Assembly (NCBI RefSeq): GCF_020524285.1
Contig: NZ_JAIVKX010000009.1
Span: 124,001 to 188,000, forward strand
Source of the DNA: Alloyangia pacifica
Lineage (GTDB): Bacteria; Pseudomonadota; Alphaproteobacteria; Rhodobacterales; Rhodobacteraceae
Direction of reading: 5' to 3'
DNA: 64,000 nucleotides
Shown here: positions 35,051 to 46,457 of the stretch, one piece after another
Numbering within the stretch: the stretch's first letter is position 1
How the letters are laid out: every line of letters begins with the position of its first letter
Notes under the pieces: model-generated
What the model was told of the DNA's origin: nothing
Database searches by the model: none
What the model saw: only the letters and a program-made list of their open reading frames with translations
Program-made: the position numbers and the translations under genes

Positions 35051-35304
35051 GGAATCAAGGCCAATGGCCGCGGTGCGAGCGGTCAGTCAATGTGGCGCCA
35101 TCGGTTCGAGCCCGATGGACGACGCCGTCCCGTGGCACCAAAGGTGCGCTGATGAAGGTCGGCACGCCGTCGGCGTGACGGGCTGGCGCATTGTCACCGT
35201 CGTGCGAGGGATGGAAGTCACTCGGGCTTGGCTGGCGTAAAGCGCTGACCTCAGTCGTCGCGGCGCCACCCCACGGGCAGGCGCCCGCACGGCTCGCGGT
35301 GCAC
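35051..35304 (+). repeat. Dispersed nif-boundary repeat, copy 1
   Basis: Non-coding stretch filling the 292-base gap between the iscA control region and the TPR gene. It shares GCGCCACCCCACGGGCAGGC exactly with copy 2 (which is on the other strand), and with copy 3 shares GGCTGGCGCATT, a CTTGG-containing middle and AGGCGCCCG near the end in the same order. Several short inverted repeats (for example GGCACC/GGTGC near 35134-35147) suggest RNA or DNA structure. No open reading frame of substance. Confidence 0.6.
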
Positions 35305-35316
35305 GATTTGGGGTCC

Positions 35317-35793
35317 CTAGTCCTCCTCCACCGCCTCCAGCCGCGCCAGCAGCCAGGCGCCGCCGAAGCGGTCCGTGGGATCGAGCTCGGCCGCCTTGGC
35401 CAGCACCGCCCCCGCCTCCTGCATCTGCCCCAGGCGCGCCGCGCAATAGCCGATCGCCACCAGCGCCTGCAGGTAGAGCCCCGGCGCGAAGGCATGGGCG
35501 GAGAACGCCGCGTCCCACGCCCGCACATCCCGCCAGTCGGCGGCCAGGTTCAGCCGCCGCGCGGCAAAGCCCAGCAGCACCCGCGCCTGGTCCAGCGCGG
35601 CGGCGTGATCGTGGCTGTAGAAATAGAAACGGTAGGCCGCCAGCCGCACCTCGGGATCGGCGGGCGCGGCCCTCAGCGCGCGGGCGATGGCCTCGGCGCT
35701 CTCCGAAGGGCGCGAGCGGGCGGCCTCGGCCCCCGCGAGCAAGGTGGCAGGATCAATCGGGGGCAAAACACGCGGCCCTCTCGTCACAGTCAT
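35317..35793 (-). CDS. TPR-like protein at the end of the nifE operon
   Basis: 158 residues, alpha-helical, with helix pairs resembling tetratricopeptide repeats: SAEAIARALRAAPADPEVRL near 32-51 and EAGAVLAKAAELDPTDRFGG near 125-144. It overlaps nifQ by 41 bases if the ATG at 35793 is used; an in-frame TTG near 35766 would reduce that. Comparable short TPR genes occur beside nifQ or nifE in other Rhodobacteraceae to my recollection, but no function is known. Possibly a docking factor for a nif protein. Confidence 0.65.
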   Translation of the reverse strand: MTVTRGPRVLPPIDPATLLAGAEAARSRPSESAEAIARALRAAPADPEVRLAAYRFYFYSHDHAAALDQARVLLGFAARRLNLAADWRDVRAWDAAFSAHAFAPGLYLQALVAIGYCAARLGQMQEAGAVLAKAAELDPTDRFGGAWLLARLEAVEED

Positions 35794-36313
35794 CGCAGGA
35801 GGGCGAGAGGCAGAGCGAGAAGGCGGAATCCGAGCAGATCTGCCGGTAGAAGAACTTCTTCCAGCGCATGTTGAGACTGTTCGCCCGCGCCAGCCCCGGC
35901 AGGTGGCGGCGGATCAACCCCGAGAGCGCGGCCCGCCCCGGCAGGCCGAGATCCTCCCACAGGTGATGCGGCTCGGCGGCTCGGCGCGCGAGGATGGCGG
36001 CCAGCCAGCGCGCCTCGTCGGTGGCGACGCCGCAGCGCCAGAGGATCAGCGTCTGGATTGCCTTCTGGTCGTCGGGCACGTCGGGCACCGGCAGGTCGAG
36101 ATCGGGCAGCACCGCGTGCGGCAGCCAGCGGTCGCGCAGGGCCCGCAGCTGCGATCCCGAAAGGCCCAGCCGTTCGGTCAGCGGCCCCTGCCCGGCCTCG
36201 CGCTCGGAGAGCGCATGATCGAGGATGCAGCAGAAATCCGAGACCGTCAGCATCGCCTCGGCGAGCAGCCCCGCCTCGGCGGTCCCGGCAGGCAGCTCAG
36301 GCGAGCGCAGCAT
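35753..36313 (-). CDS. nifQ: NifQ, molybdenum donor for FeMo-cofactor synthesis
   Basis: 186 residues ending in the NifQ signature C-x4-C-x2-C-x5-C: C168, C173, C176 and C182 in CLSPSCDDCDERAAC, which holds a Mo-Fe-S cluster. Upstream MRWKKFFYRQICSDSAF is also typical. NifQ passes Mo to NifEN/NifH. Its start overlaps the end of fdxB by 17 bases, and modABC in the adjacent unit supplies its metal. Confidence 0.94.
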   Translation of the reverse strand: MLRSPELPAGTAEAGLLAEAMLTVSDFCCILDHALSEREAGQGPLTERLGLSGSQLRALRDRWLPHAVLPDLDLPVPDVPDDQKAIQTLILWRCGVATDEARWLAAILARRAAEPHHLWEDLGLPGRAALSGLIRRHLPGLARANSLNMRWKKFFYRQICSDSAFSLCLSPSCDDCDERAACFAPD

Positions 36314-36602
36314 GGGTCTGGCAGTCCGAGGGGCAGACCCGCGCGCAGGCGCCGCAGCCGATGCAGTTCTCGGGAGCGATCATCGACATGACCTTCTTGA
36401 CGATCTCGTCCTCGACATCCTCGTACTCGTCGGTACCGGGGCGGACGATCTCGCCGTCCTCGGTGACCCCGTGCAGGGTCATCACGGCGCGGCCGCAGAC
36501 CTTGTAGCAGCGCCCGCAGCCGATGCATTTCTCGGGGTTTATGGCCATGAGATACTCGGGCACGTATTCGGCCCCGCCCCGGGTATAGGCGACAACGCTC
36601 AT
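36297..36602 (-). CDS. fdxB: FdxB, nif-specific ferredoxin III
   Basis: 101 residues with two cluster motifs, CIGCGRCYKVCG near 26 and CIGCGACARVCPSDC near 80, separated by an insert of about 40 residues (DGEIVRPGTDEYEDVEDE), the FdxB family pattern. Electron donor linked to FeMo-co assembly. It starts two bases before the stop of the CCE_0567-like gene. Confidence 0.94.
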   Translation of the reverse strand: MSVVAYTRGGAEYVPEYLMAINPEKCIGCGRCYKVCGRAVMTLHGVTEDGEIVRPGTDEYEDVEDEIVKKVMSMIAPENCIGCGACARVCPSDCQTHAALA

Positions 36603-36603
36603 C

Positions 36604-36813
36604 TCACGCCTCCGCCGCGGCTTTCTTCGCCGCCTTCAGCGCCCCGCGCGCGGCGCTGAGCTCCTTGAAGATCTCGAAGGTGCGCTCGGCGGTCTCGGGG
36701 ATCTTCTCCCAGTCCACCGGCAGCTCCTCGGCAAGGTCGTGCAGGTTCATCTTGGCGTCGGTGGCCCGCATCGAAAGTTTCTTCACGCGGGTTTCCAGCT
36801 CTTCGAGGCTCAT
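36604..36813 (-). CDS. CCE_0567-family small nif protein
   Basis: 69 residues, a helical hairpin: MSLEELETRVKKLSMRATDA, then LHDLAEELPVDWEKIPE and a basic Ala/Lys tail. This is the CCE_0567/nif-associated metalloprotein family found next to NifX-associated protein and FdxB. Metal binding is known for a cyanobacterial member; role in fixation is unclear. The start at 36813 overlaps the 45-codon ORF by ATGA. Confidence 0.85.
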   Translation of the reverse strand: MSLEELETRVKKLSMRATDAKMNLHDLAEELPVDWEKIPETAERTFEIFKELSAARGALKAAKKAAAEA

Positions 36814-36947
36814 GACAATCTCCTCTTCACGGGGGGTTTCGCGGGTCTGCGAAGGAAGCGCGACAGCGCGGTGCGCCCCGCGGCGGGCTTCAGCGAGACC
36901 GCGGGGGCGGGCTTGCGCGGGCGTGGCAGGGGCTCGATGCGCACCAT
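36810..36947 (-). CDS. Possible 45-residue basic, proline-rich protein
   Basis: ATG at 36947 lies three bases past the stop of the NifX-associated gene and its stop (TGA) overlaps the ATG of the CCE_0567-like gene by four bases, so it fits precisely between two coupled genes. The product is MVRIEPLPRPRKPAPAVSLK followed by 25 more residues, rich in Pro, Arg, Lys and Ala with no Cys and only one acidic residue. No ribosome-binding site is clear. It may be a real coupled small protein or a remnant of an N-terminal extension. I do not recognise a family. Confidence 0.4.
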   Translation of the reverse strand: MVRIEPLPRPRKPAPAVSLKPAAGRTALSRFLRRPAKPPVKRRLS

Positions 36948-36950
36948 GTC

Positions 36951-45161: not shown

Positions 45162-45182
45162 GGTCTCTGCCTTGGGGCGGGC

Positions 45183-46073
45183 TCAGCCGGCCGCCTGCTC
45201 GGATTCCTGCGCGGCGATCATCGCCTCGCGCTCTTCCTCGGACTGCATGATGCCGAATTCCATCAGCATCTCTTCCAGCTCGTCCATGGTCACCGGGGTC
45301 GGGATCACGCCCTTGCCCGAGTTCTCGTGGATCTTCCGGGCCAACTCGCGGTACTCCATCGCCTGCTTGCTCTCGGGCGCGTACTGCAGCACCGTCTGGC
45401 GGCGCAGCTCGGCGTGCTGCACGATGTTGTCGCGCGGCACGAAGTGGATGAGCTTCGAGCCCAGCTTGGCGGCCATCGCCTCGGCCAGTTCCAGCTCCTT
45501 GTCGGTCTGGCGCTCGTTGCAGATCAGCCCGCCGAGACGCACGCCGCCGGAGTTGGCGTACTTGAGAATGCCCTTGGCGATGTTGTTGGCGGCGTAGAGC
45601 GCCATCATCTCGCCGGACATGACGATGTAGATTTCCTGCGCCTTGTTCTCGCGGATCGGCATGGCGAAGCCGCCGCAGACCACGTCGCCGAGCACGTCGT
45701 AGGAGACGTAGTCGACATCCTCGTAAGCGCCGTTTTCCTCCAGGAAATTGATCGAGGTGATGACGCCCCGACCGGCGCAGCCGACGCCCGGCTCGGGGCC
45801 GCCGGATTCAACGCATTTGATGTCCTTGAAGCCGACCTTGAGCACGTCCTCGAGCTCGAGGTCCTCGACCGAGCCCATCTCGGCGGCGAGGTGCAACACG
45901 GTGTCCTGCGCCTTGGAGTTGAGGATCAGGCGGGTGGAGTCCGCCTTGGGGTCGCAGCCGACGATGAGGATTTTCTGGCCCATCTCGACGAGGGCCGCGA
46001 GGGTATTCTGCGAGGTGGTCGACTTGCCGATCCCCCCCTTGCCGTAAAAGGCGATCTGACGAAGTTCGCTCAT
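45183..46073 (-). CDS. nifH: Nitrogenase Fe protein NifH
   Basis: 296 residues. P-loop GKGGIGKS at 11-18; 4Fe-4S ligands C99 and C133; R102 in [10 protein letters not shown] matches the arginine ADP-ribosylated by DraT in purple bacteria, although no draT/draG is in this window. Full-length and intact. ATP-dependent electron donor to NifDK and needed for P-cluster and FeMo-co maturation. First gene of nifHDK behind a sigma-54 promoter. Confidence 0.99.
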
Positions 46074-46148
46074 ATCCTTGTCCTTTGGTCTAGTGTGATC
46101 AATCTCGCGAAGGTGAGACGGTTCGCGACCGCGCTCAGGAAGGAATGA

Positions 46149-46163
46149 GCAGGAAGCGTGCCA
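46149..46163 (-). promoter_or_regulatory. Sigma-54 (-24/-12) promoter of nifHDK
   Basis: Minus-strand TGGCACGCTTCCTGC: perfect -24 element and invariant GC at -12, but CTGC instead of TTGC. It lies 76 bases upstream of the nifH start, giving a leader of about 63 bases. Confidence 0.88.
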
Positions 46164-46213
46164 AGCCCCTTGGGCTTAGAGGTCCTTCGAAATCAGCAAC
46201 TTGAGAGAAACCG

Positions 46214-46245
46214 ACAGAGTGGAGGAAACCCGACAAAGCCCGACA
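46214..46245 (-). promoter_or_regulatory. NifA half-site cluster upstream of nifH
   Basis: Three TGTCG half-sites on the minus strand (ACA on the plus strand at 46214-46216, 46233-46235 and 46243-46245). None has an ACA ten bases downstream, and no TGT on the plus strand exists between 46141 and 46260, so no perfect NifA palindrome is present. Confidence 0.5.
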
Positions 46246-46276
46246 ATGGGGCCGTGGAGAGCTGCGCATGCCCGCA

Positions 46277-46457
46277 CGGGATCAAGGCGGAGCCGCCGGG
46301 CGAGCGCCGACCCATCCCCGCGGGCTGGCGCATTTGCATCCTCGCGCATCGGACAAGGGTCATCCGGACTTGGCATGGATGAAGCGCTGGCCACAATCGT
46401 TACCGCGCCACGGCACGGCACGGACAGGCGCCCGACCTGGCTCCGGTTGCGCAATCC
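46277..46457 (+). repeat. Dispersed nif-boundary repeat, copy 3
   Basis: Lies between the nifH control region and the peroxiredoxin terminator, in a 447-base gap without genes. It carries GATCAAGGCGGAGCCGCCGG, GGCTGGCGCATTTGC, GGACTTGGCATGG and GGACAGGCGCCCGACC in the same order as copies 1 and 2, with many substitutions. Confidence 0.6.

Follow-up and report, generated by a model that had tools for sequence, protein, structure and literature searches.

A dispersed intergenic palindromic repeat among the nif genes of Alloyangia pacifica, most likely a non-autonomous mobile element

Bacteria commonly carry intergenic palindromes, and it is a standing question by what means these are maintained and spread when no transposase is obvious. 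Both bcr1 of Bacillus cereus and ERIC of enterobacteria are intergenic, MITE-like elements of 130-160 nt that form a long stem-loop with compensatory changes. Among Alphaproteobacteria, Br-REP1 and Br-REP2 were described from Bradyrhizobium and Rhodopseudomonas (PMC5082802). The repeat reported here was encountered in a window of 64,000 nt from the genome of Alloyangia pacifica (G000; contig NZ_JAIVKX010000009.1, positions 124,001 to 188,000), where three copies lie among nif genes. It is unusual in that the same gene gaps stay occupied in related species, while the copy and often its direction differ.

The preliminary description had proposed that three stretches at nif transcription-unit boundaries are one degenerate repeat. 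The ordered shared blocks were present in all three, with refined bounds, and local alignments of the three copy pairs scored 64.5, 52.5 and 65.5 against shuffle means of 20.4-20.9 (500 dinucleotide shuffles each; z = 14.5, 10.3 and 14.5; highest shuffle score 33.0), far above chance. The copies and their parts are as follows (window positions):

35045..35299, + strand: copy 1, 255 nt, enlarged and degenerate, carrying additional stem-loops where P2 would lie
35083..35125 (approximate), + strand: extra stem-loop in copy 1, of the 208-nt subtype, with a T-arm-like loop GGTTCGAGCCC seen in the sequence
41536..41706, - strand: copy 2, full-length, 171 nt, 153.5 bits with model R1
41675..41704 (approximate), - strand: leader hairpin P1 of copy 2
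41662..41682, - strand: left arm of the terminal inverted repeat of copy 2
41645..41674, - strand: P2 hairpin of copy 2, whose last base starts a three-T run
41542..41562, - strand: right arm of the terminal inverted repeat of copy 2
46272..46447, + strand: copy 3, with a degenerate 3' arm; model match 46272-46442, 127.9 bits

Copy 1, in which the R1 match spans 35144-35299, is located upstream of an iscA-like gene and downstream of ORF 35317-35793, and copy 3 between nifH and a peroxiredoxin gene, both between tandem minus-strand genes. Copy 2 separates the convergent nifK (-) and ORF 41082-41516 (+). Copies 2 and 3 had also been said to abut terminators; terminator-like sites do lie about 31 nt from copy 2 (41737-41752, +) and about 21 nt from copy 3 (46494-46468, -), but the scan returned 9 such sites against 5.4 (sd 2.7) in shuffles, which lends them weak support.

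The repeat measures about 170 nt and consists of a 21-bp terminal inverted repeat, the leader hairpin P1, the second hairpin P2, which is GC-rich and closes with a short T-run (a nearly invariant TTT), and a conserved apical segment around GATAAA. Subtypes of 170, 208 and 214 nt occur, and the collected copies span 67-215 nt, none seen with a gene inside. The leader was rejected as a separate repeat, as 15 of its 17 pattern matches in the genome fell inside 53 copies, one in a weak match left out of that set and one in none. Two mutually exclusive folds, a series of local hairpins and a single long stem, both covaried strongly across 50 copies from ten genomes and five genera, supplying the compensating base changes that had been named as support for the element. 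Local hairpins paired in 92.7% of cells (covariation score 0.234 vs 0.075 shuffled) and the long stem in 93.6% (0.281 vs 0.079); none of 500 shuffles reached the observed scores, and pairing fell to 31-46% once partners were slid. The outer helix of the long stem, 21 pairs in length and paired in 94.2% of cells, is a terminal inverted repeat of the MITE kind, while the two short hairpins in inverted orientation, scattered through DNA outside genes, correspond to REPIN architecture.

Model R1 gave at least 74 matches in the genome, of which 53 were used, while 15 self-matches on the opposite strand and 6 weak ones (E 5e-4 to 0.015) were set aside; at least 44 were good copies (65 bits or more). 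According to a simple gene caller, 24 of these 44 lay between convergent genes, 20 between tandem genes and none between divergent genes, compared with 5.5, 22.9 and 16.3 kb of convergent, tandem and divergent intergenic DNA, respectively, in 400 kb of control sequence, confirming the anticipated enrichment at gene ends. Four of the 9 weaker copies were between divergent genes. Among the best 23 copies (140 bits or more), 22 had a same-strand gene upstream, with its stop codon within 31 nt in 14, although this orientation is automatic for the 13 convergent ones; the tandem copies were 9 sense to 1 antisense in this set and 12 to 8 across all 44. By eye, at least seven copies come after an ordinary terminator-like hairpin. 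Neighbour pairs closer than 10.5 kb, a cut-off set after the positions had been seen and with one contig's size assumed, numbered 12 among 51 copies, against 6.1 expected within contigs (P 0.008) or 4.5 genome-wide (P 0.0006). The proposed comparison with density outside nif thus revealed clustering, but of a mild and general kind, since the nif trio supplies only 2 of the 12 pairs.

Concerning relatives, the nif copies were found eroded. In the sister species G005, copy 2 lacked the leader and the outer left arm, and copies 1 and 3 had internal gaps; the nifK side was reduced to a leader-like remnant in G015 and G009, and copy 1 was not recognisable in the alignment in G015, G013 and G004. 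Those at nif are unremarkable members of the repeat in partial decay, close to the "decayed mobile repeat" that had been one of the suggested readings. A special tie to nif found no support, and the genome-wide spread and this erosion led to rejection of a nif insulator or nif-confined boundary element and of a trace of nif-island assembly. Some boundary role is conceivable, but one that depends on orientation is spoken against by the erosion and by orientation changes between sister species. Motifs shared by operon boundaries, as here, can be repeat copies and not regulation.

Of 120 genomes sampled from the family, 51 contained the repeat (copy counts being lower bounds), with 0 to at least 46 copies per congener among the matches listed, and in a class-wide sample of 115 genomes it was found in this genome and not in the other 114, absences in these searches holding at their stricter filters. 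Matches occurred in 4 plasmid records, while one copy used as query gave none in phages.

In G005, 20 of 22 compared copies were in intergenic regions also occupied in G000, as was the nifK-side copy, the 23rd there, which was outside this comparison. Ten of the 20 shared sites held inverted copies and ten copies in the same orientation, and only 1 to 5 appeared to hold the same copy by descent. In G015, 25 of 44 compared copies shared an occupied region with G000. Altogether 59 pairs were compared, excluding two with a single matching flank; 15 of 35 shared sites held an inverted pair (10 of 27 once 15 weak or truncated copies, listed by hand, are omitted). Apical identity had a median of 0.61 and a 99% level of 0.76 in random pairs, and was about 0.9 in by-descent pairs; 12 pairs exceeded 0.76, and the strict 99.9% cut assigned 5 of 59 to descent. 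Simple inversion of one copy was rejected because the 22 inverted pairs reached at most 0.73, like random and unlike by-descent pairs. An ancestral double element was also rejected, with no second element in the 35 shared-site loci (E 1e-4).

One site showed clean empty alleles: G000 and G015 share one insertion at a gene junction that is uninterrupted and exact in six genomes (G009, G010, G011, G014, G001 and G016), with a direct repeat of about 9 nt in G000/G015 and of 14 nt in G019. At C8:21361, one copy common by descent was carried by G005 and G015, with an apical identity of 0.99, and a 62-nt remnant survived in four sister species. G000, nested inside this group, instead had a copy of a different subtype in inverted orientation, and the old one had left no visible trace there. 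Across the comparison, sites stay occupied while their occupants turn over. At many shared sites a by-descent anchor is missing, so that insertion independently into preferred regions accounts for part of the pattern as well as replacement does.

No transposase, autonomous partner or related transposon was found. The RAYT gene (Y1_Tnp, PF01797) had no match in G000, on which ground a REPIN/RAYT system was rejected for this genome; the domain occurred in 3 of 20 congeners (G002, G016 and G008), which held 0, 0 and 8 repeat copies respectively. The best flanking direct repeats of 168 copies followed the null and gave no fixed-length target duplication, a comparison distorted at enlarged copies (such as C2:500990, C12:158569 and C8:21361), where some of the 5' side falls outside the model bounds.

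Overall, the explanation that we favour with reasonable confidence is a non-coding palindromic repeat that is specific to the family and dispersed through intergenic DNA, most likely as a mobile element of the REP/ERIC/MITE kind that is not autonomous. Its arms can form either the long stem-loop or the set of local hairpins, and an enzyme acting on the hairpins may copy it; copies would accumulate in 3' intergenic regions because those inserted in other places are eliminated, and a resident copy might be replaced in place by another in either orientation. P2 and its T-run may incidentally end upstream transcripts. Mobility alone leaves the conserved apical segment unexplained. A more speculative possibility is that the repeat is a homing-like palindrome, whose sites are long inherited and whose residents are repeatedly overwritten by family copies in either orientation, with subtype switches; the hairpin itself would perhaps provoke breakage, then repaired from another copy. 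The family would then evolve in concert, its arms co-varying as three linked segments. A transposase that repeatedly targets certain intergenic regions, each species acquiring its copies independently and without in-place replacement, appears unlikely: G019, outside the G000/G005/G015 clade (support 1.0), does carry its own insertion with the 14-nt direct repeat at the junction used by G000/G015 and G005, and the even split of orientations between G000 and G005 suits this proposal, but the exchange at C8:21361 argues against it, as does a flank profile with no strongly conserved word beyond the element ends (no dedicated motif test).

Selection could instead maintain an element with a function at 3' ends (a terminator, an insulator or a hairpin that stabilises mRNA) for which any copy in any orientation suffices, so that copies swap and sites stay. 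Site sharing far beyond chance despite differing occupants, the TTT closing P2, and the upstream same-strand genes and sense bias of the best copies would fit, yet the same junctions lack the repeat in other species of the genus, the nif copies erode, orientation changes between sister species and stands at 12 to 8 over all tandem copies, and several copies already stand behind a terminator-like hairpin; we judge this improbable. For a family of trans-acting small RNAs or a cis-regulatory RNA speak the RNA-compatible covariation and one promoter-like match inside copy 3, but promoter matches in the nif stretch, the sole region scanned, numbered 2 vs 0.9 in shuffles and are not informative. Rfam gave no match over the gathering score in the whole window (five loci at E up to 1 gave two, 25.5 and 20.2 bits, below cut-offs of 49 and 114), copy number varies extremely, and mean apical identity, from a 97-copy alignment that includes locus L138 at its full 1808 bases, is low (0.41-0.62 between genomes, 0.47-0.73 within), making this reading very hard to sustain.

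Compared with known systems, the repeat resembles MITEs in its terminal inverted repeats, patchy copy number and lack of visible coding capacity, but differs in that its target duplications are not general and in that a related transposon has not been found. Like REP/BIME/REPIN sequences with RAYT, it presents hairpins in inverted orientation, extragenic and dispersed (PMC8049555); unlike them, it is 170 nt long, with a leader hairpin and a conserved apical segment, in a genome with no Y1_Tnp gene found. It shares with Br-REP1/Br-REP2 the character of a many-copy intergenic palindromic repeat of Alphaproteobacteria and, by eye, the word CCGGAATC of the Br-REP1 consensus as quoted in PMC5082802, but the class-wide sample gave no match to it in its other 114 genomes. 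Its likeness to bcr1 and ERIC, whose hosts are unrelated to the present one, concerns their generally known properties. Beside these systems, two exclusive, compensated folds together with exchanged, inverted occupants in close species make in-place replacement directly testable.

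The three stretches of the window that the preliminary description had grouped as one degenerate repeat (copy 1, 35045-35299, +; copy 2, 41536-41706, -; copy 3, 46272-46447, +) proved to be real and homologous once their blocks were located and their pairwise alignments compared with shuffles. Used as a query against its own genome (G000; 5.7 Mb, 49 contigs), copy 2 gave 69 BLAST matches, opposite-strand palindrome hits and pieces included. A covariance model built from 23 copies (R1) returned 74 matches with E no higher than 0.1, 53 of which were kept after omission of 15 opposite-strand self-matches and six weak hits; 44 of these 53 reached 65 bits or more. 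The consensus of this dispersed element is about 170 nt long and comprises, in order:

leader hairpin P1
left arm, 21 nt
hairpin P2, which reuses the left arm and has a 3'-terminal run of three T
apical region (about 70 nt), containing GATAAA as its conserved core
right arm, the complement of the left

Longer forms, of about 208 and 214 nt, had additional stem-loops at the P2 position, and copy 1 was such an enlarged variant. In the 208-nt subtype, and at 35083-35125 of the window, the additional stem-loop resembled a tRNA T-arm, with the loop GGTTCGAGCCC in copy 1, a likeness that is possibly due to chance.

Two mutually exclusive folds, one of local hairpins and one a long stem, were evaluated on an alignment of 50 copies from ten genomes and five genera (A3), with the model structures taken from one of its sequences. 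The local hairpins were paired in 92.7% of cells with a covariation of 0.234 (0.075 shuffled), and the long stem in 93.6% with a covariation of 0.281 (0.079 shuffled). On both measures, neither fold was matched by any of 500 shuffles, which ignore relatedness, and the pairing of both was lost when the partner strands were slid out of register. Concerning the weaker measures, pairs with double changes were equalled in 50/500 and 24/500 shuffles (local hairpins and long stem, respectively), and extra pair types in 3/500 and 264/500. Compensating base changes, which the preliminary description had named as support, were present in A3 for both folds. In the 23 own-genome copies alone, RNAalifold covariation was near nil (term +0.39; double changes in 3 of 22 pairs), so it is the between-genera comparison that supports the structures. 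The leader, left arm and right end also co-varied, with one altered heptamer or its complement found in all three in four of eight examined copies of G034, a compared genome. Arm identity exceeded apical identity in every genome comparison (0.78-0.94 vs 0.47-0.73 within genomes).

Gene context was assigned with a simple codon-based gene caller allowing overlaps of up to about 30 nt. Among the 44 good copies, 24 were convergent, 12 tandem sense, eight tandem antisense and none divergent, while the nine weaker copies were convergent (five) or divergent (four). In a 400-kb control from the same genome, intergenic DNA amounted to 5.5 kb convergent, 22.9 kb tandem and 16.3 kb divergent, and the convergent excess of the good copies was significant against counts of intergenic regions (P = 1.4e-9). 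The enrichment at gene ends holds genome-wide, the profile of an insert that is tolerated there. P2 could plausibly act as a terminator where a stop codon lies shortly upstream of the element; however, element orientation was not kept, and several copies already sat after a regular terminator-like hairpin.

The suggested special tie to nif was not borne out, as the nif copies were eroded or unrecognisable in relatives. In G005 the nifK-side copy no longer had a leader or an outer left arm, and just a leader-like remnant was left in G015 and G009. At the place of copy 1, G005 held a copy with an internal gap, and no recognisable copy was detected in G015, G013 or G004. Copy 3 was shortened in G005, and its neighbourhood differed in G013 and G004.

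R1 matched 27 of 61 genomes, own genome counted, with no match in the 24 listed as non-family. The broader model R2 matched 51 of the 120 genomes sampled from the taxonomic family, own genome counted; in a class-wide sample of 115, which held at least one further genome of the same family, the own genome was the only match. Copy number across genomes was patchy. A right-arm pattern of 25 letters, 24 of them fixed bases, matched 55 stretches from named genomes, all with titles that we take to be Rhodobacterales; 30 belonged to strain IMCC 34051. In that strain (L309-L358), the 28 aligned right-arm matches were mostly full elements with near-identical arms and very different apical regions, and a few were composite or without the standard left half. 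Three plasmids of Salipiger and one of Pacificitalea also carried copies. No description of the repeat was found in the open-access literature searched.

Flanks were compared for 53 G000, 22 G005 and 44 G015 copies. Regions with a copy in G000 were also occupied by 20 of the 22 G005 copies and 25 of the 44 G015 copies, and 33 of the 53 G000 copies shared their intergenic region with G005, G015 or both. For the 22 G005 and 53 G000 copies, independent placement on about 770 convergent regions (an extrapolated figure) would give an estimated one or two coincidences. Part of this sharing is inherited occupancy, since the three genomes form a clade (support 1.0; four gene pieces, two sites). Occupants at shared sites often differed: 10 of the 20 G000-G005 sites were in inverted orientation, an inverted pair was present at 15 of the 35 shared sites overall (10 of 27 without weak copies), and 47 of 59 pairs had an apical identity no higher than 0.76, the 99% limit for random pairs. 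At C8:21361, one copy was common to G005 and G015 (apical identity 0.99) and a 62-nt remnant was kept in four sister species, while the G000 occupant was inverted and of a different subtype. At C19:92644, G000 and G005 had a copy in common (0.94), while the occupant in G015, which grouped with G000 (0.98), was inverted. The arms of L069 (G000 C4:164428-164599) looked, by eye, like a subfamily of another genus (G029); at this site G005 and G015 held the usual subfamily in opposite orientation.

An empty site was apparent at C19:95914, where the gene junction was exactly intact in six genomes and five further ones (G002, G007, G013, G017, G018) had no insert in the sequence displayed. At one insertion common to G000 and G015, about 9 nt of the junction occurred twice; the G005 insertion was inverted, and G019 had a separate insertion with a 14-nt repeat. 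Across 168 copies, flanking direct repeats showed no excess over the null. L147, a degenerate copy in G029, was flanked by a 23-nt perfect direct repeat, with one unit starting 56 nt ahead of the model bounds and the other 22 nt past them.

Same-strand copy pairs 230-380 bases apart were found in G007 (C3:92685/92919, C5:282789/283119, C13:6710/7086) and G028 (C3:2586610/2586842), and are possible intermediates of replacement. A gene for RAYT, the REP-associated transposase (Y1_Tnp, PF01797), was looked for in the own genome and not found. It is inferred that the element is moved by an enzyme and that resident copies are replaced in place.
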